Source of the DNA: a virus | Virus record (IMG/VR): IMGVR_UViG_3300031599_000046 | Span: 1-21,610 of that record | DNA: 21,610 nucleotides | Strand: one strand, 5' to 3' | Shown here: piece by piece, positions 2,204 through 10,378 of the stretch | How the letters are laid out: every line of letters begins with the position of its first letter | Position numbering within the stretch: the first letter of the stretch is position 1 | Notes under the pieces: model-generated | The model's database searches: none | Told to the model about the DNA's origin: nothing | Seen by the model: only the letters and a program-made list of their open reading frames with translations | Program-made: the position numbers and the translations under genes

Positions 2204-5200
2204 TATACCGGTGTCCTTATCGCTCTTAGTTTAACATGTGTATTTATCTTTGTTGGACTTAATGTAAGTTGTACATTATCCCCTGATATTCTTGCGTCGA
2301 ATGTTCCTAAATCAGAATCAAGTAGTATTTTTGCGTAACTTGTCATTGCTACACTAGTTCCGTTGTGTACTAATAATATTTCTTCAGAATGATAACCACT
2401 ACTATCATTATTTTCAAGTTGTGCAGTGTACTTTACTGTTCTATAAATTGTTTTATTAAAGCTATGTATAATCTGTGCAGAGTCAGTAGATGTTAAATCT
2501 GAATCAATTGAAAAGATTCCATTTAAATCTGTGGTTGTAGCTTTAGCATGACTTACAACTTCAATAATATTTCCAGATGATAACGCAGAATCAAATACTA
2601 TAGATGTTCCATTAGCAGCTGTAAAATCTTTTCCTGTTACTAATCTTACACCGTTTGCAAATACATCAACTTTACCTACATCATAAGCAAGAGATACTCC
2701 AGCAGAATCATTTCCACTTACTGAATCAGAAGTTGCGCCTAAAGTGTAAATATATGATTTATGATCTCTTAATATTAAATTTACAGATTGTATTAAATGT
2801 GTTCTTGTTTCAATTTCATCACTTGATGATGGAGCAGAATCAAGTGTTAATGTAACACCAGATACGCCATATGTATTTGTGTGTTGTAATATACCATTAA
2901 TGAATACTAATACATCATCTGAATCAACTGGAGTATTCGATAATGTAAACGCTTTGTTACTTCCATTTCCAGCGAATGTATCAGCTTTTACATTATTGAT
3001 TGATCCAATTGAACCACTTGCACTTCCAGGAATAGTAATTGTTTTTGTTGCGCCAGAGCCAGTTGCGGTTACACCGGATCCTACAAAGTTTAATGTACTT
3101 GCTGCAGTAGATAGAGAACTGGCTTCTTCTTGAATTGTTATTGCGCTACCAACTTGTCTTGCTTGTACATAAGATGAGTCAACTTGAAATCCTATAGAAG
3201 AATCAATCATCGCTTGTGTAGCAGCTGAATCTGTACCTGCTGCGGTTCTTGCTTGAACATACGCTGAATCAACTAACACTATCACAGCTGAAGAATCGAT
3301 ATTTCCACTTAATGCTGTAACTGATGCAAATGATAAGTTACCACTTCCATCAGTTTTTAATACATGATTGTTAGAACCATCAGCCTTTGGAAATCTTAAT
3401 CCACCAATCGTTGCTGAGTCGGCAGTAAGTTCACCAGTTATGCTTACTCCTGAATCACTTGTTTGGAATCTTACAGAATGATTGTGCCTTAGCTGAACAT
3501 ACCCATTTTCTTGGAAAATTGCCATATTTTCCGTTCCAGCTGCATTTTGTATATAAAGATCATCTGCCTTAATAACTAAATCACCAGCACCGGCTTCTTC
3601 GATATAAGAAGTGTTATTGGCCTTATTGTGTCTAATGACTAAGTCACCACCAGTTCCAAAACTTGCTTTGTGATCGTCACCAAATTCTAGAGCTTTATCT
3701 GACTTATCAAATATTATACCACCAGCAGAATCAAATATTATGTCATTAGCAAATGTTATTGTATTAGCAAAATTTGAATCAATCATTGACTGCGTAGCGG
3801 CTGAATCTGTACCTGCGGCTGTTCTTGCTTGTACGTATGCAGAATCGATTAATGCGGTAGTTCTTGCAGCTGTGTAATATAAGTTAGTTTGTTCTGGAAG
3901 ATCTGCAGTACTTACTTGATTAGTACCAGTTCCAAAATCAATATGAGTATCATCAATACCATTAGCTTTAATTGTAACTGCACCAGACGAAACACTAAAA
4001 TGATCAGCGCTAAATGAAGCTATACCTTTATTTGAAGTTGATGCATTTTCACCAGATATTGCTCCTGATGATATATCAATACCTTCGCCTGCTGATATTG
4101 CTCCCTGAGCTCTAGCATTTGTAAAATATAGATTACTTCCTTCAGTTAAATTTGCTGTGGTAAATCCTGTTAAGTTGCGTGTACCAAGTACGAGAGCGTG
4201 ACCCATATAACCATGTGCTGAACACTGGTAATGTAATGTTGGAGGTGTCGCTTCACTTACAGCAATTTGTAAGTACGTTGAAGTAGTTGTAACACCACTA
4301 GTATAAGCTGTTGTTTTTGCAGCGTCATAATAAAGTCTAAATGGATGACTTGACATATCACTTGAACTTAAAGTGAATCTATATGTTCTACCTAATTGTA
4401 ATTGAATTATAGGTGAAAACGTACCATCTACTTTATAACCAAGACTACTGCCTGATCCATTATAAACGTGATCGGTGCTTTTTGTAGCGACTGTAACTGC
4501 AAAGTTCTTAACTGCTGCAGTATGCTTATTTCTTTCAACGGCTGTATTTGCAGAGTCTTTTGCTAAGATATAATCACTATCAAAATTAAACATTCCTCGT
4601 ACATTTGCAGAGTCTATATCAAATGTTCTACTAGTAACAATAGTACCACCGCCAGTTAATCCTTTTCCAGCAACTATAGAAACTCCAGAGTGAGATATAT
4701 GCTCGTTAGCTACAAAATTAGCAAGAGCGTCGTGATCTATTGAAGGTATATTACCAATATCAGCAATTAATAAAGCTGGTATTCTAGCGGAATCAATTGT
4801 ACCAGTTAATTGAGCTGCAGGTAATGCTGTTAAATTTGCTCCACTGCCTGTAAATGCATTGGCTTGCATAATACCTGTTAAAAACATGTTTCCTTCATGT
4901 GTTATTCTTGCTTTTTCAGCAGCCGCACCAGAAGTACTAAGTTTAAATACTAAATCAGTATTATTAGCAGTAGAAGAAAAAGTTGTATCTGCTTCTGCTA
5001 CAATAGCAGCAGCTTCGACATTGGCATCACCGCCACTAGCTTCATTAGTTCCTTTAAAACTAATTGTGCCTAGTGTATTTCCATCAACAATTGTACCATC
5101 ACTTCTTTCTAAGATAAGATTACCACCATTACCAGTAGCAGACGCTCGCAGGGTGCCAGCCACTGTCAAAAGATTAGTAGATGGATTAAATGTTAACCCG

Positions 5201-7596
5201 CCGTTGTCTACTTGCATTTGAGAATAACTATTACCAGCTGGCCTTGTGTTCTCAAATATAATATTATAAGCTGCATTATCATCTTCAGATTCGTCAACAA
5301 ACACAGTGCCGGCTCGTGCAGCATTTCCGTTACTGACGTCACTATCAACTCTTGCTTTAGTATAATAAAGATTTGTTCCTTCAGATAACTTTGTAGTAGA
5401 AGCTGAATCTAAATTCATATCAAAGTCAGAATCAACTCTTGCTTTAGTATAATATAAGTTAGTTCCTTCAGTTAAATTAGCAGTGTTTTTAGTTCCTAGT
5501 GCGGAATCAAAATCAGAATCAAATCCTAGAAAACTACCTTGAAATGGTTTATTAAATACAAACTTATCGCCTACTGCCGCATATGTTATTGAAGCATTAG
5601 CACCATTAATTGTAATACCTGCTCCATTCGCAGCAGTTGCTGAATCTGCAGAATCAGCTAATATAATATTCTTATCGTTTATTGAAACTGCAGTTGAATT
5701 AATTACTGTTTGTACACCTTCAACTGTAAGATTTCCTAAAATTGTAACTCTACCAGTTGCATTACCAACTGCAGCAGGATCTATAACAAAGTTTGCTGGA
5801 CCTCTTATTTCGTTAAATGTAACAGTATCACCAGTTCCTACTGATTGTCCAATTGATATTACGCCTGAACCTGAATCATAAGTTACACCTGTTCCACCAA
5901 GTAATGAAGCTTTTGCATCGCTATCACCTCTTGCAGTTGTATAATAAAGATTTGTTGAACCTTCTGATAATTTATCAGTTGAAGCTGAATCTAAGTTTTT
6001 ATCAAAGTCTGAATCAGCTCTTACTGTTGTGTAATATAAATTAGTTTGTTCTGGAAGATCTGCAGTACTTACTTGATTAGTGCCTGTACCAAAATCAATA
6101 TGAGTATCATCAATACCATTAGCTTTTACACTAACAGCTCCAGATGATACAGCAAAATGTTCTGTATTAAAAGACGCAATACCTTTGTTAGATACTGTAG
6201 CATCTTCACCAGATATTGCTCCTGATGATATATCAATACCTTCACCTGCTGTAATATGTGCTCTTACTTCAGAAGCACTTGGACCAGTGTAAGTCATTAC
6301 TCCAGTTGCTGAATCATACGTAAATGATCCATCGCCACCAGCATCAATTCCTAGCAATGAAGCTTTTGCATCAGAGTCTGTACGTGCAGTAGTATAATAT
6401 AAGTTTGTTCCTTCAGGTAATTGAGCAGTATTTGCTAATCCTAAATCTGAATCAAAATTAGATTTTGTATAAATTTGTTCTACATCAATAGAGAATACAC
6501 CAGTTGCAGAGTCATATGTAATGTCACCTTGACCAGAAAAGTGTGCTCTTACTTGTGTTGGGCTTGGACCTGTATATGTTATAACACCATTAGCTGCGTT
6601 ATATGCTAATGCTCCATCACCGCCAGCGTCAGTAACAGATATCATTGACTTTAAATTTGCAGAGTCAACACTAAATATACCAGTTGAGTTACTGTAAACT
6701 AAACCTTTATCGCCTGTAAAGTGCGCTCTTGTTTCACTTGCACTTGGACCAGTGTAAGTCATTACTCCTGATGAAGAATCATAAGTAAAATTACCATCAC
6801 CGCCACCTATTGATCTTGCAAATAAAGAAGCCTTTGCATCACTATCAGCTCTTGCGGTTGTATAATATTGATTAGTTCCTTCTGGAAGATTTGTTGTACT
6901 AAAGTTTGCTGTGAATTCAGCACTATCTATTTTTATAGTATTTGTTGCAGCGTCATAAGCTAAACCTACACCGCCTAAAGCAGCTTCATCAATAGCTAGA
7001 TTGAAATCAGAATCAAAATTTGCTTTTGTATATACTTGCTCAACATCAAAACTAAATACTCCAGTAGAAGAATTATAAGATAAATCTCCACCAGCACTGA
7101 AAAATCCACGTATTTGAGGTACTGATCCAGCTAAATCTATATTTACTACACTACCAGCACTATCTTTAACACCAAACTTATCACCTGAATCTTTAAGTAG
7201 TAATCCACCTAAATGAATAGTTGTTCCACTTAAAAATAAATCTTTCCATTTTTTATCACTATCACCTAAATTATACGCGCTATCTGCGCCAGGCAATAAG
7301 CTTCCATGAGAAGTAAGACCTGATATAATAGGAGAAGAACTCGAATCTATTCGAATTAATAATCTATCATTTCCTGGAGTATATAATTTTTCTAATCCAT
7401 TATCAACATTTAAATCAAAGTTTTTAAATGCTTGTTCACTTGAATCATAGACTAGTATTTGAGCGTCAGATTTCGTGGAAACTTTAAAATCGTTAAACTG
7501 ATCAATTGATAAACCAGTAACTGCTGTAGATATTGGAGTACCAACAACAATCTTTTTAATAAAGGTGTTTTGGCCTGTTGTGACTCTAATTGTCAT
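2203..7596 (-). CDS. Giant repeat-built tail fibre protein, 1797 aa, with cupredoxin-like insert
   Basis: A long fibre built from repeats. The N-terminal 150 residues hold the attachment-type motif GADSAYNLGDSDKKWKDLFL, then SGTTIHLGG, common in marine myovirus fibres. Residues ~160-560 carry repeats of the type GGDGxFTYDSxxGVMTYTGPSASExRAHF alternating with LPEGTNLYYTTARADSDAKASL. Residues ~1028-1137 form a distinct cupredoxin-like domain (H1084, C1125, H1128, M1131). A second set of repeats follows, then FINGILQHTNTYGVSG near residue 1600, another known fibre module. About 50 Asp-Ser dipeptides were counted by eye. The ATG at 7596 has a GAGG Shine-Dalgarno 5 nt upstream. The fibre role is inferred from the motifs; it could be a long tail fibre or a baseplate-attached side fibre. 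A chaperone is not recognised nearby. Confidence 0.8.
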   Translation of the reverse strand: MTIRVTTGQNTFIKKIVVGTPISTAVTGLSIDQFNDFKVSTKSDAQILVYDSSEQAFKNFDLNVDNGLEKLYTPGNDRLLIRIDSSSSPIISGLTSHGSLLPGADSAYNLGDSDKKWKDLFLSGTTIHLGGLLLKDSGDKFGVKDSAGSVVNIDLAGSVPQIRGFFSAGGDLSYNSSTGVFSFDVEQVYTKANFDSDFNLAIDEAALGGVGLAYDAATNTIKIDSAEFTANFSTTNLPEGTNQYYTTARADSDAKASLFARSIGGGDGNFTYDSSSGVMTYTGPSASETRAHFTGDKGLVYSNSTGIFSVDSANLKSMISVTDAGGDGALAYNAANGVITYTGPSPTQVRAHFSGQGDITYDSATGVFSIDVEQIYTKSNFDSDLGLANTAQLPEGTNLYYTTARTDSDAKASLLGIDAGGDGSFTYDSATGVMTYTGPSASEVRAHITAGEGIDISSGAISGEDATVSNKGIASFNTEHFAVSSGAVSVKANGIDDTHIDFGTGTNQVSTADLPEQTNLYYTTVRADSDFDKNLDSASTDKLSEGSTNLYYTTARGDSDAKASLLGGTGVTYDSGSGVISIGQSVGTGDTVTFNEIRGPANFVIDPAAVGNATGRVTILGNLTVEGVQTVINSTAVSINDKNIILADSADSATAANGAGITINGANASITYAAVGDKFVFNKPFQGSFLGFDSDFDSALGTKNTANLTEGTNLYYTKARVDSDFDMNLDSASTTKLSEGTNLYYTKARVDSDVSNGNAARAGTVFVDESEDDNAAYNIIFENTRPAGNSYSQMQVDNGGLTFNPSTNLLTVAGTLRASATGNGGNLILERSDGTIVDGNTLGTISFKGTNEASGGDANVEAAAIVAEADTTFSSTANNTDLVFKLSTSGAAAEKARITHEGNMFLTGIMQANAFTGSGANLTALPAAQLTGTIDSARIPALLIADIGNIPSIDHDALANFVANEHISHSGVSIVAGKGLTGGGTIVTSRTFDIDSANVRGMFNFDSDYILAKDSANTAVERNKHTAAVKNFAVTVATKSTDHVYNGSGSSLGYKVDGTFSPIIQLQLGRTYRFTLSSSDMSSHPFRLYYDAAKTTAYTSGVTTTSTYLQIAVSEATPPTLHYQCSAHGYMGHALVLGTRNLTGFTTANLTEGSNLYFTNARAQGAISAGEGIDISSGAISGENASTSNKGIASFSADHFSVSSGAVTIKANGIDDTHIDFGTGTNQVSTADLPEQTNLYYTAARTTALIDSAYVQARTAAGTDSAATQSMIDSNFANTITFANDIIFDSAGGIIFDKSDKALEFGDDHKASFGTGGDLVIRHNKANNTSYIEEAGAGDLVIKADDLYIQNAAGTENMAIFQENGYVQLRHNHSVRFQTSDSGVSITGELTADSATIGGLRFPKADGSNNHVLKTDGSGNLSFASVTALSGNIDSSAVIVLVDSAYVQARTAAGTDSAATQAMIDSSIGFQVDSSYVQARQVGSAITIQEEASSLSTAASTLNFVGSGVTATGSGATKTITIPGSASGSIGSINNVKADTFAGNGSNKAFTLSNTPVDSDDVLVFINGILQHTNTYGVSGVTLTLDSAPSSSDEIETRTHLIQSVNLILRDHKSYIYTLGATSDSVSGNDSAGVSLAYDVGKVDVFANGVRLVTGKDFTAANGTSIVFDSALSSGNIIEVVSHAKATTTDLNGIFSIDSDLTSTDSAQIIHSFNKTIYRTVKYTAQLENNDSSGYHSEEILLVHNGTSVAMTSYAKILLDSDLGTFDARISGDNVQLTLSPTKINTHVKLRAIRTPV
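3871..4093. repeat. Direct repeat copy A (223 bp) inside the fibre gene
   Basis: This stretch matches 6028-6250 at a constant offset of 2157 bp without indels, with long exact blocks (for example around 3891-3925 and 4052-4085). It encodes a module ending LPEQTNLYYT and containing KANGIDDTHIDFGTGTNQVS. The two copies differ mainly at third codon positions and in a central ~60 bp. Confidence 0.8.
4180..4512 (-). other. Cupredoxin-like domain within the fibre (residues ~1028-1137)
   Basis: Seen in the translation: a beta-rich segment beginning KNFAVTVATKS, a GRTYRFTLSSSDMSSHPFRLY block with H1084, and a terminal HYQCSAHGYMGHAL block with C1125, H1128 and M1131. One upstream His followed by Cys-x2-His-x2-Met is the ligand set of type I copper proteins such as plastocyanin. 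Similar HPF...YxCxxHxxMG segments occur in other marine phage structural proteins. Whether metal is bound is unknown; the fold may serve only as a stable fibre module. Confidence 0.6.
6028..6250. repeat. Direct repeat copy B (223 bp) inside the fibre gene
   Basis: Partner of the copy at 3871-4093. The protein-level module (GEGIDISSGAISGE..., then KANGIDDTHIDFGTGTNQVS) is preserved in both, which indicates intragenic duplication. Recombination between the copies would delete exactly 719 codons in frame. Confidence 0.8.
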
Positions 7597-7967: not shown

Positions 7968-8011
7968 AGTTGATTTCTTTGTCGGACGATTACCGCCCCT
8001 GCCATTTAAAC

Positions 8012-8019
8012 TATTTATA
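8012..8019 (-). promoter_or_regulatory. T4-type late promoter octamer, reading left
   Basis: A perfect TATAAATA on the minus strand. In T4-like phages this octamer alone, at about -13 to -6, defines late promoters used by host RNA polymerase with gp55 and gp33 on the gp45 clamp. The predicted start is near 8006, giving a leader of about 50 nt before the ATG at 7957. It would drive the distal fibre genes (7957 to beyond 1). Perfect octamers occur elsewhere in this AT-rich window at about the chance rate, so the support is its location in the only divergent intergenic gap. Confidence 0.7.
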
Positions 8020-8031
8020 CAAATTAACTTT

Positions 8032-8039
8032 TATAAATA
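8032..8039 (+). promoter_or_regulatory. T4-type late promoter octamer, reading right
   Basis: A perfect TATAAATA on the plus strand, 12 bp from the divergent minus-strand octamer. The predicted transcript start, 6 nt after the last base, falls on about 8045, which is the A of the ATG of the SPASM-like gene. This suggests a leaderless or nearly leaderless mRNA for the plus-strand enzyme island. Confidence 0.65.
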
Positions 8040-8044
8040 CATTT

Positions 8045-8344
8045 ATGAATGATTTTATCTTAAAACCTCAATGCCATAAACGAGAAAAAACTATACTATC
8101 TAAAGGTGCTGCATATGTATCTACAGGGCATCTACTTCCATGTTGCTGGTGCGATAGTTTAGATCCAAAAAAAATAGAAGAATTTAGAAAGCTTGGTTTT
8201 TTCTTTGAAGATTTAAAAGTTGAAAAAAATGACACAATTGAAGATATACTTATGTCTGACGTTTGGATCAACTTTCATAGAACACTTATAGAGAAACCAG
8301 AAGAAGCACCTTCTACTTGCAAGAAAAACTGCTCGAATGAATAA
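8045..8344 (+). CDS. Stand-alone SPASM-like cysteine-cluster protein, 99 aa
   Basis: A small protein with six cysteines at C10, C33, C34, C36, C92 and C96. The arrangement C10...G28-x4-C33 followed by a closing C92-x3-C96 resembles the SPASM/auxiliary iron-sulfur domain that normally sits at the C-terminus of radical SAM enzymes. The text also fits this family: GAAYVSTGHLLPCCWCD, a helix with 'IEDILMSDVWINFHRTL', then the closing APSTCKKNCS. It overlaps the radical SAM gene by 8 nt, so the two were probably one enzyme split in two, or form a complex. The frame can be extended back to 7898, but that would run through the divergent promoters and the oppositely oriented gene, so the ATG at 8045 is preferred. 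No Shine-Dalgarno precedes it. An auxiliary-cluster or substrate-binding role is inference. Confidence 0.65.
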   Translation: MNDFILKPQCHKREKTILSKGAAYVSTGHLLPCCWCDSLDPKKIEEFRKLGFFFEDLKVEKNDTIEDILMSDVWINFHRTLIEKPEEAPSTCKKNCSNE

Positions 8345-9047
8345 TTTTAATAAGTTATATAGTTCATATATAGAAGAACAAAAAAAAGCAGTTTTTAATA
8401 TCGAAACTACATCTAGATGTAGGCTTCAGTGTCCGTTTTGTCAAAGGCAAAGAAAAGGAGGTAAAGAAAAAGTAAAACTAGCTGGCGAAATGTCGTATGA
8501 AGATATGAGAAAAATTTATAATTTTACTACAAGGATGAATTTTTGTGGACAAATTAGTGATCCGATTTATCATACAGATTTCTTAAAAATACTAGAAATA
8601 AAGAAAAACGAATATCCGAATAATATAATGAGCATAAGAACTAATGGTTCCGGAAAGAAGTTAAGTTGGTGGGAAGCCGCGTACAATCTTTGTGATAAAA
8701 CAACTATATGGACATTTGGTTTAGATGGAGCAAGTCAAAAAACTGCAAATATATATCGAATAGGCACAAACTTTAATGAAATTTTTAAAGCCATGATTAT
8801 TGGAACAAAAAATAAAATACCTATAGAATGGCAATTTATTTTATTTAAACATAATGAGCATGAACTTGAACTGGCTAAAAACCTTTGTAATGAAAACGGA
8901 ATAACTTTAGTTGTTATTTATTCACAGAGATGGCCAAAAGAAAAAAAACATCTTGGAATAAATAAGTCAATTACTCAAATTAAAGAAGAAATTAAAACAC
9001 AACAAATACCAGTGCAAAAATATGGAAAAATATATTTTAACAAATAG
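8337..9047 (+). CDS. Radical SAM enzyme, 236 aa
   Basis: The motif C28-x3-C32-x2-C35 within NIETTSRCRLQCPFCQRQ is the canonical radical SAM [4Fe-4S] site, which cleaves S-adenosylmethionine to a 5'-deoxyadenosyl radical. Downstream, FCGQISDP (69-76) sits where the SAM-binding GGE-type motif is expected, followed by SIRTNG (99-104) and FGLDGAS (127-133), all normal for the barrel. The protein is short and ends soon after the barrel; it lacks a C-terminal SPASM domain, which is supplied by the overlapping upstream gene. The start ATG lies inside the last codons of that gene (8 nt overlap). The substrate is not recognisable: peptide or sugar modification are both plausible. Next to glycosyltransferases in a virion region, modification of virion protein or surface glycan is my inference. 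Confidence 0.85.
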   Translation: MNNFNKLYSSYIEEQKKAVFNIETTSRCRLQCPFCQRQRKGGKEKVKLAGEMSYEDMRKIYNFTTRMNFCGQISDPIYHTDFLKILEIKKNEYPNNIMSIRTNGSGKKLSWWEAAYNLCDKTTIWTFGLDGASQKTANIYRIGTNFNEIFKAMIIGTKNKIPIEWQFILFKHNEHELELAKNLCNENGITLVVIYSQRWPKEKKHLGINKSITQIKEEIKTQQIPVQKYGKIYFNK

Positions 9048-9059
9048 AAGATTAACAAG

Positions 9060-9779
9060 ATGGAAATAATATGTTTAAAGTGGGGTGACAAATTTAGTCA
9101 TGAACATGTAAATCGTTTATATAAAATGGTTAAAAAGAATTTTGATCATGAATTTAACTTTGTATGTTATACAGAAAACTCTACATTAATTAATAAAGAA
9201 ATAGAAATACGTAGATTAAATTCAGAATACGACTTAGAGAAATGGTGGTGGAAACTTACATTATTTGAGAAGCCAACTGATAAACCTACAATGTTTTTAG
9301 ATTTAGATGTTGTAATTCAACATAATATAACTCATTATATAAATTATTGTAAAGATAATAAGATATGCACGATTAAAGCCTATTGGAAGCCACATGCTCA
9401 TAACTTAAAACCAGTCGCACCTGGGTATAATATGGATTTAAATTCTTCTGTTATAATTTGGAAAGGTGATTGTACACACGTGTGGAATGAATTCTATGAC
9501 CAATGTGATTACTTAATGTGTAAATATCAAGGAATAGATTCGTATTTATATTTTCACCATAAAAATATACTTGAATTTTTTCCTAGGAATGAAATATATT
9601 CTAGGTTACATGGAATGGATGAAGAAAGAATGTGGTGGCATGGGCCTAAAGTTCCTTTGTTTTATGATCCGTTATATAGCATTTGTATTTTTAACAAATG
9701 GAAGATGGATAAAAAATGGGGTGGCCCAGGAATTGAAGATGACGCATATGATGGATTTGAAAAGTATTGGAATGATTAA
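9060..9779 (+). CDS. GT-A-fold glycosyltransferase, 239 aa
   Basis: The N-terminus MEIICLKWGDKFSHEHVNRL and 'FNFVCYTEN' match a group of glycosyltransferases common in marine T4-like phages. The metal/nucleotide-sugar DxD motif is D81-L82-D83 within MFLDLDVVI. A preceding KWWWKLTLF (61-69) and a following LNSSVIIWKGD (127-137) are conserved positions in such GT-A enzymes. It would transfer a sugar from an NDP-sugar in the cytoplasm. No signal peptide or membrane segment is visible. It begins 12 nt after the radical SAM stop, and its own stop overlaps the next start (TAATG, 9777-9781). Donor and acceptor are unknown. Candidates are virion proteins, host lipopolysaccharide precursors and modified bases. 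There is no strong Shine-Dalgarno, so coupling to the upstream gene is likely. Confidence 0.8.
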   Translation: MEIICLKWGDKFSHEHVNRLYKMVKKNFDHEFNFVCYTENSTLINKEIEIRRLNSEYDLEKWWWKLTLFEKPTDKPTMFLDLDVVIQHNITHYINYCKDNKICTIKAYWKPHAHNLKPVAPGYNMDLNSSVIIWKGDCTHVWNEFYDQCDYLMCKYQGIDSYLYFHHKNILEFFPRNEIYSRLHGMDEERMWWHGPKVPLFYDPLYSICIFNKWKMDKKWGGPGIEDDAYDGFEKYWND

Positions 9780-10378
9780 TGGACAGTAGATATAGTGAAT
9801 GCTTAGGCTGGTTTTATAGAAGATACCCAGATAAAATAAAAGATTATATACAAAGTGTATCACCAAAACAAATTGCGTGTAAGCAATGGTTAGTAGATCA
9901 ATTAATTGAAATACCACATGATTTTAAAAACATTCATCTATATGGTGGCTGGTTTGGTTATCCTTTAATAGACGTGTTAAATAAACAATATAGTATTGAT
10001 ATTTTAACAAATATAGATTGTGATAAGTTTGCAACTTCAGTTTGTTTTAACTTTAAAAATTATTTTAATCATCATTTTGTAAAAACTTCAACACAAGATT
10101 TAGTAACAACTGGCGGAATATACAAAGAAGTTGATTTAGTAATTAACACTTCTAGTGAACATATGCCTGACTTACCTGAACTTATTAATAATAAATCATA
10201 TAATAAGTCTTGTGTTTTCGCTTTACAAAGTAACAACATGTTTCACTTAGATGAACATACTAATTGTGTAAACTCTCATGAAGAATTAGCTGAAAAAAGT
10301 GGACTTAATACTATATTATATTCTGGTAAATTAGATTTAGATAATTATGAAAGATATATGGTTATAGGTTTATTCTGA
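9779..10378 (+). CDS. SAM-dependent methyltransferase-like protein, 199 aa
   Basis: Rossmann-like pattern: NIHLYGGWFGYPLIDVL (51-67) in the place of the glycine-rich motif I, NIDCD (78-82) as the acidic ribose-binding end of strand 2, and DLVINTSSEHMPDL (119-132) as the motif IV region. After it comes VFALQSNNMFHLDEHTNCV (146-164), seen in related marine phage proteins annotated as methyltransferases. It would methylate an unknown small molecule, sugar or protein. It starts in a TAATG overlap with the glycosyltransferase stop, with GGA 7 nt upstream, and is the last gene of the plus island. Its end overlaps the end of the oppositely oriented oxygenase-like gene by 9 nt (10370-10378). The class assignment is by motif only; motif I is atypical (one GG pair). 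Confidence 0.6.
   Translation: MDSRYSECLGWFYRRYPDKIKDYIQSVSPKQIACKQWLVDQLIEIPHDFKNIHLYGGWFGYPLIDVLNKQYSIDILTNIDCDKFATSVCFNFKNYFNHHFVKTSTQDLVTTGGIYKEVDLVINTSSEHMPDLPELINNKSYNKSCVFALQSNNMFHLDEHTNCVNSHEELAEKSGLNTILYSGKLDLDNYERYMVIGLF

Follow-up and report, generated by a model that had tools for sequence, protein, structure and literature searches.

The stretch of DNA analysed here (the window), a virus record of 21.6 kb, comes from a T4-like marine phage. Tail-fibre and structural genes occupy its minus strand, on either side of a small operon encoded by the plus strand. The operon and its surroundings comprise the following features:

8012-8019, minus strand: second TATAAATA box, back-to-back with the next one and a few nt from ATG
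8032-8039, plus strand: TATAAATA box resembling a T4-type late promoter, 5 nt 5' of the S start and kept in the related contig L003
8045-8344, plus strand: S, a 99-aa stand-alone Twitch (half-SPASM) protein with Cys at 10, 33, 34, 36, 92 and 96
8337-8344, plus strand: 8 nt in which the S stop and the R start overlap
8337-9047, plus strand: R, a 236-aa radical SAM barrel with CX3CX2C at residues 28-35
9060-9779, plus strand: glycosyltransferase-like protein (phrog_1962), 12 nt downstream of R
9779-10378, plus strand: 199-aa protein of unassigned function, conserved with the cluster, with a homologue in L003

Both TATAAATA boxes fall within the 39-nt spacer (8006-8044) between S and a divergent tail-fibre-assembly gene; the five such boxes in the window equal the chance expectation, and it is their placement alone that is suggestive. 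The overlap of S and R makes translational coupling possible. An earlier description of this locus made from the sequence alone (the sequence-only reading) had proposed the two frames with their lengths and overlap, the six cysteines of S with G-x4-C and C-x3-C spacing, and a bare CX3CX2C barrel in R; the ORFs and their translations agree with it on every point, the spacings being G28-x4-C33 and C92-x3-C96 in S, and the motif C28-x3-C32-x2-C35 with no C-terminal cluster domain in R. Comparison with the homologous pair of L003, the closest relative of the window (76-79% identical), indicates purifying selection on both genes, with dN/dS of about 0.14 for S and 0.23 for R. L003 also carries a weakly matched nitroreductase-family gene (5960-6595) between R and the glycosyltransferase, and homologues of this gene recur near other S/R pairs.

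R belongs to the radical SAM superfamily by its CX3CX2C motif and its match to Pfam Radical_SAM (PF04055; 35.8 bits, E 1e-8, cutoff 29.5). Residues C28, C32, C35, R37, G71, D75, D130, R141, W165 and N173 are invariant in its family. The fold was assessed on a natural R-S fusion homologous to R (L097) in place of the window R. The barrel of this model is good (pLDDT 85, pTM 0.71 for the whole chain), and the PDB chains that it matches best are radical SAM enzymes, at Z of about 15, pointing to a partial TIM barrel. Over more than 300 columns the fusion model superposes on SPASM enzymes only at 17-22 A rmsd, so the twitch docking known from anSME or SuiB is not reproduced.

The SPASM signature comprises seven Cys for two auxiliary clusters (CX9-15GX4C-gap-CX2CX5CX3C-gap-C), and the Twitch domain, with one auxiliary cluster, has a Cys on each side of a beta-hairpin, the second within GX4C, and two more past the next helix (PMC6231123). 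In the S family C10, P32, C33, C34, W74, C92 and C96 are invariant (72-73 members) and C36 is conserved in about 60%, so that five of the six Cys of S are family-invariant; the pattern C-x(n)-G-x3-PCC...C-x3-C recurs in 108 of 119 members. The full SPASM signature is absent from the family, which has five invariant Cys and no CX2CX5C. The window S scores below the Pfam SPASM cutoff (15.7 bits against 21.5, E 0.018), while 35 of 73 family members match this domain at E<0.01 (best 2.8e-6). S as modelled by AF2 (pLDDT 92, pTM 0.82) has the Twitch layout of Cys, beta-hairpin, Cys, helix and two Cys. Motif, predicted secondary structure and the profile match to one-chain enzymes described below thus identify S as a Twitch domain, the one-cluster half of SPASM, which would be expected to bind a single cluster. 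The proposal that the 99-aa protein is SPASM-like therefore holds as to kinship and fails as to a complete SPASM. Searches of PDB with the S model (Foldseek) gave no significant match, comparison of its sequence profiles with PDB chains returned noise alone, and NCBIfam yielded no match to S at E<=1. When the model was aligned with seven chains by VIA-align, the sole match with Z>=2 was to residues 162-239 of BtrN (4m7s), a weak one (Z 2.6, 75 residues, 3.2 A) that falls in the auxiliary-cluster region of that enzyme.

Several viral contigs encode one-chain relatives of R (348-379 aa), and some of them hold an S/R pair as well. The S profile aligns with the C-terminal domain of these relatives (HHalign 96.7%, E 3e-10, 83 columns) with the conserved Cys in register, and one of them (L096 1117-2205) matches both Pfam Radical_SAM and SPASM over the cutoffs. 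By this homology S is best regarded as a piece of R's own enzyme. The one-chain proteins (L096 1117-2205 and L067 1538-2584) share with the pair the R family, the twitch (by profile), and the contigs or the type of phage; they differ in having barrel and twitch in a single chain with a longer linker, and form their own clade (98% SH-aLRT).

The curated family NF033640 (N_Twi_rSAM) resembles the window pair in placing a twitch ahead of the barrel and in occurring in marine phage clusters, and differs from it in being one chain. A true member (L097 2196-3365, 219.8 bits) lies just upstream of the fused R-S gene. Membership takes a score above 170 bits and an N-terminal twitch: relatives reach 23-28 bits, over the barrel part only, and the window R (P0002) gave no match at E<=1. 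The N-terminal twitch of NF033640 has no detectable homology to the S profile (HHalign 9.6%), and N_Twi_rSAM was rejected on this ground as a fused parent of the S-R order. The 'SPASM protein' of Citrobacter phage IME-CF2 (BFVD) was likewise rejected as a precedent for a split enzyme; it has the appearance of a one-chain gene that has been broken, because a radical SAM protein is annotated at this place in related Klebsiella and Citrobacter phage records. In IME-CF2 itself (L169 26837-27990) the radical SAM gene is apparently broken ahead of the SPASM part.

Viral contigs were scanned with R and with S separately, giving 160 loci, and the two scans converged on the same kind of pairs. With S and R paired one-to-one and identical S domains removed, 110 distinct adjacent pairs were counted; every gap is at most 3 nt, and the genes overlap in 98 of the pairs. 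The order is R-S in 82 and S-R, as in the window, in 28; an earlier count at 82% R identity gave 79 clusters (57 R-S and 22 S-R). Both parts are fused in nine further ORFs. For the eight S genes with no directly adjacent R, the nearest R lies about 0.3-1.6 kb away; in L130 a small ORF occupies the gap. Tandem arrays of pairs occur in L089, L040 and L130, the first with four S-R pairs on a single contig (37-5024). S and R thus co-occur obligately, with an R near every S found, which is the outcome that the sequence-only reading had set as its test of partnership. Its view of a split enzyme gains support from the natural fusions and from the homology of S to the C-terminal domain of one-chain proteins. 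The further idea of an order-swapped enzyme is right for the genes, which stand as S-R in the window and occur in both orders, and does not extend to the domains: fusions in either order had been suggested as worth seeking, and all nine read barrel-twitch, with no S-R fusion found among the contigs scanned. Because both gene orders occur naturally, the reversed order in the window is natural variation and requires no reversed domain architecture.

The sole isolated phage found with the pair is the SAR11 phage Mosig (Pelagibacter phage Mosig EXVC030M), whose genes 00084 and 00085, annotated as 'putative molybdenum cofactor biosynthesis enzyme' and 'hypothetical protein', are direct homologues of R and S. 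They overlap by the same 8 nt as in the window, whereas their order is the opposite one, R-S. A scan of 84,980 species genomes of bacteria and archaea yielded no more than two matches (L167 and L168). Both carry a phage-type upstream gene and are probably phage fragments, and a bacterial origin of the pair was rejected. In L168, a contig binned as Planctomycetota, a tail-fibre-assembly-type gene adjoins a Mosig-type R/S operon (1793-2128, 2253-4354).

Distances among S proteins correlate with those among their R partners, with r of 0.46 overall, 0.69 within the S-R order and 0.63 within the R-S order, against permutation maxima of 0.14, 0.33 and 0.17, respectively; such a correlation can reflect partnership and equally the plain co-inheritance of neighbouring genes.

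A quick maximum-likelihood tree was built for the barrel, with the one-chain enzymes as root. It places the S-R lineages at the base and unites the R-S lineages in a single derived group (96% SH-aLRT). The fusions are scattered at several positions inside the R-S group, and the L029 group has reverted to the S-R order. A single clade of all S-R members is rejected (AU p 6e-5), hence the order must have changed at least twice. The simplest reading of this tree, the base of which is poorly resolved, leads from a one-chain enzyme through a split and a change of order to repeated re-fusion.

The 110 pairs in both orders, the fusions and the constant proximity of S to R support well, by inference, the conclusion that S and R are two subunits of one radical SAM/Twitch enzyme, to which we assign a probability of about 80%. 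R would hold the SAM-cleaving [4Fe-4S] cluster on its CX3CX2C motif within the partial TIM barrel and generate the 5'-deoxyadenosyl radical. S would be a polypeptide of its own that supplies the auxiliary-cluster (Twitch) domain, with one Fe-S cluster held by C10, C33 (or C34), C92 and C96; docked on the barrel opening, it may shut the active site and accept an electron from the substrate radical. Overlap of the two genes would allow both proteins to be made jointly and in similar amounts.

The likely substrate is indicated by the neighbourhood. Raw counts among 96 proteins adjoining S-R clusters give six DegT-family sugar aminotransferases, six Nol-type carbamoyltransferases, six glycosyltransferases and nine other radical SAM enzymes; methyltransferases and a galactose sulfotransferase-like gene are also present. 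In L145 (3983-5068) S is fused to a phrog_1962-like glycosyltransferase, a homologue of the gene downstream of R in the window (E 1e-9), and a similar fusion with a weaker match is encoded by L151 (3932-5083). In L010 (3974-6346) a 790-aa ORF joins R to a Nol/NodU-type carbamoyltransferase. Elsewhere, five genes annotated as radical SAM adjoin an amidinotransferase-like gene in Campylobacter phage CP220 (L005). The S/R pair sits in a host recognition island as described for pelagimyophages: radical SAM cassettes together with glycosyltransferases were noted in the host recognition cluster of these phages (PMC7029224), and 12 radical SAM genes are reported for one T4-like genome from the ocean (PMC5332604).

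The sugar-linked neighbours, the fusions of S and of R, and the location in a host recognition island favour an enzyme acting on a sugar or glycan, which we judge somewhat likelier than all other substrates together; the glycan target is probably on the phage or its host. Of the two options in the phrase 'protein- or glycan-modifying' used in the sequence-only reading, the second thus gains from the neighbours and from the glycosyltransferase and carbamoyltransferase fusions, and the first is less favoured. A two-subunit enzyme that modifies a protein, such as a tail-fibre residue, or a DNA base is nevertheless a serious, if rather unlikely, competitor. The cluster adjoins tail-fibre genes, QueC, QueE and GTP-cyclohydrolase genes lie near the pairs in a few loci, and some R members weakly resemble peptide maturases; against this, DegT aminotransferases, Nol-type carbamoyltransferases and glycosyltransferases recur, each subunit is fused to a sugar-linked enzyme in some contigs, and neither a precursor peptide nor an RRE gene was noticed. 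As for the chemistry of the two-subunit enzyme on a sugar or glycan, the substrate would be oxidised or rearranged as by BtrN in aminoglycoside synthesis, with DegT aminotransferases, carbamoyltransferases and glycosyltransferases as partners; a keto product would suit a DegT aminotransferase. The neighbours and the weak fold match make BtrN-type oxidation the likeliest single reaction, a choice we make only tentatively.

S could act otherwise than as a subunit of R. As a free-standing ferredoxin-like carrier it would deliver electrons to R or to other radical SAM enzymes; several radical SAM genes are present in many clusters, and electrons can pass from one radical SAM protein to another in vitro (PMC10470005). 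The presence of one S per R in near-perfect adjacency, kept even in tandem (four pairs in L089), the existence of R-S fusions and the correlated divergence of S and R inside each order class make such a carrier improbable. Still less credible is S as a Cys-rich RiPP-like precursor peptide (as SCIFF/ranthipeptide) with R as its maturase, despite the five invariant Cys of S and the small Cys-rich ORF adjoining a radical SAM gene that typifies such systems: S is fused to R in nine ORFs and, in L145, to a glycosyltransferase, shares homology with the C-terminal domain of the one-chain proteins, is confidently predicted to be globular (pLDDT 92), and has non-Cys residues conserved family-wide (P32, W74, I68). 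A frameshift or assembly artefact in a one-chain radical SAM/Twitch gene, for which the separate radical SAM gene and SPASM ORF of the IME-CF2 record (where related records annotate radical SAM) could be invoked, is refuted by the S-R order, since no frameshift can put the twitch gene upstream, and by the recurrence of 110 distinct pairs, many of them from different samples, with overlapping start and stop codons, together with the purifying selection on both genes and the two overlapping CDS of the isolated phage Mosig.

To our knowledge, the SPASM or Twitch auxiliary cluster shares a chain with the barrel in all other such enzymes, and no paper on a discrete or split SPASM was found in the literature searched; the 'GeoRSP system SPASM domain protein' is a possible bacterial parallel. 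BtrN (2-deoxy-scyllo-inosamine dehydrogenase) resembles S/R in combining a CX3CX2C barrel with a one-cluster Twitch, and its pathway likewise employs a DegT/StrS-family aminotransferase. In contrast to the two genes and two polypeptides of S/R, BtrN is one chain, and the sequence identity is low. The pelagimyophage cassettes and the genome with 12 radical SAM genes come from the same kind of phage and island, and in the available portions of these two papers (PMC7029224, PMC5332604) a separate twitch gene, its pairing or its order was not found.

The two-subunit reading would explain two unassigned genes of the isolated SAR11 phage Mosig. The role of auxiliary clusters is debated, with electron acceptance and substrate binding as the alternatives, and a separable subunit would make it directly testable: in a two-piece version with each part under 240 residues, the auxiliary-cluster subunit could be omitted, mutated or swapped in vitro. 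Taken more broadly, and somewhat speculatively, the pairs may represent a widespread class of radical SAM enzymes with a detachable auxiliary-cluster subunit, which arose from one-chain enzymes, changed its gene order and re-fused several times, and whose barrels and twitches, exchangeable in principle, could diversify glycan chemistry in phage host-recognition islands. The finding points to an unexpected radical sugar chemistry of anaerobic type in phages of oxygenated ocean water.
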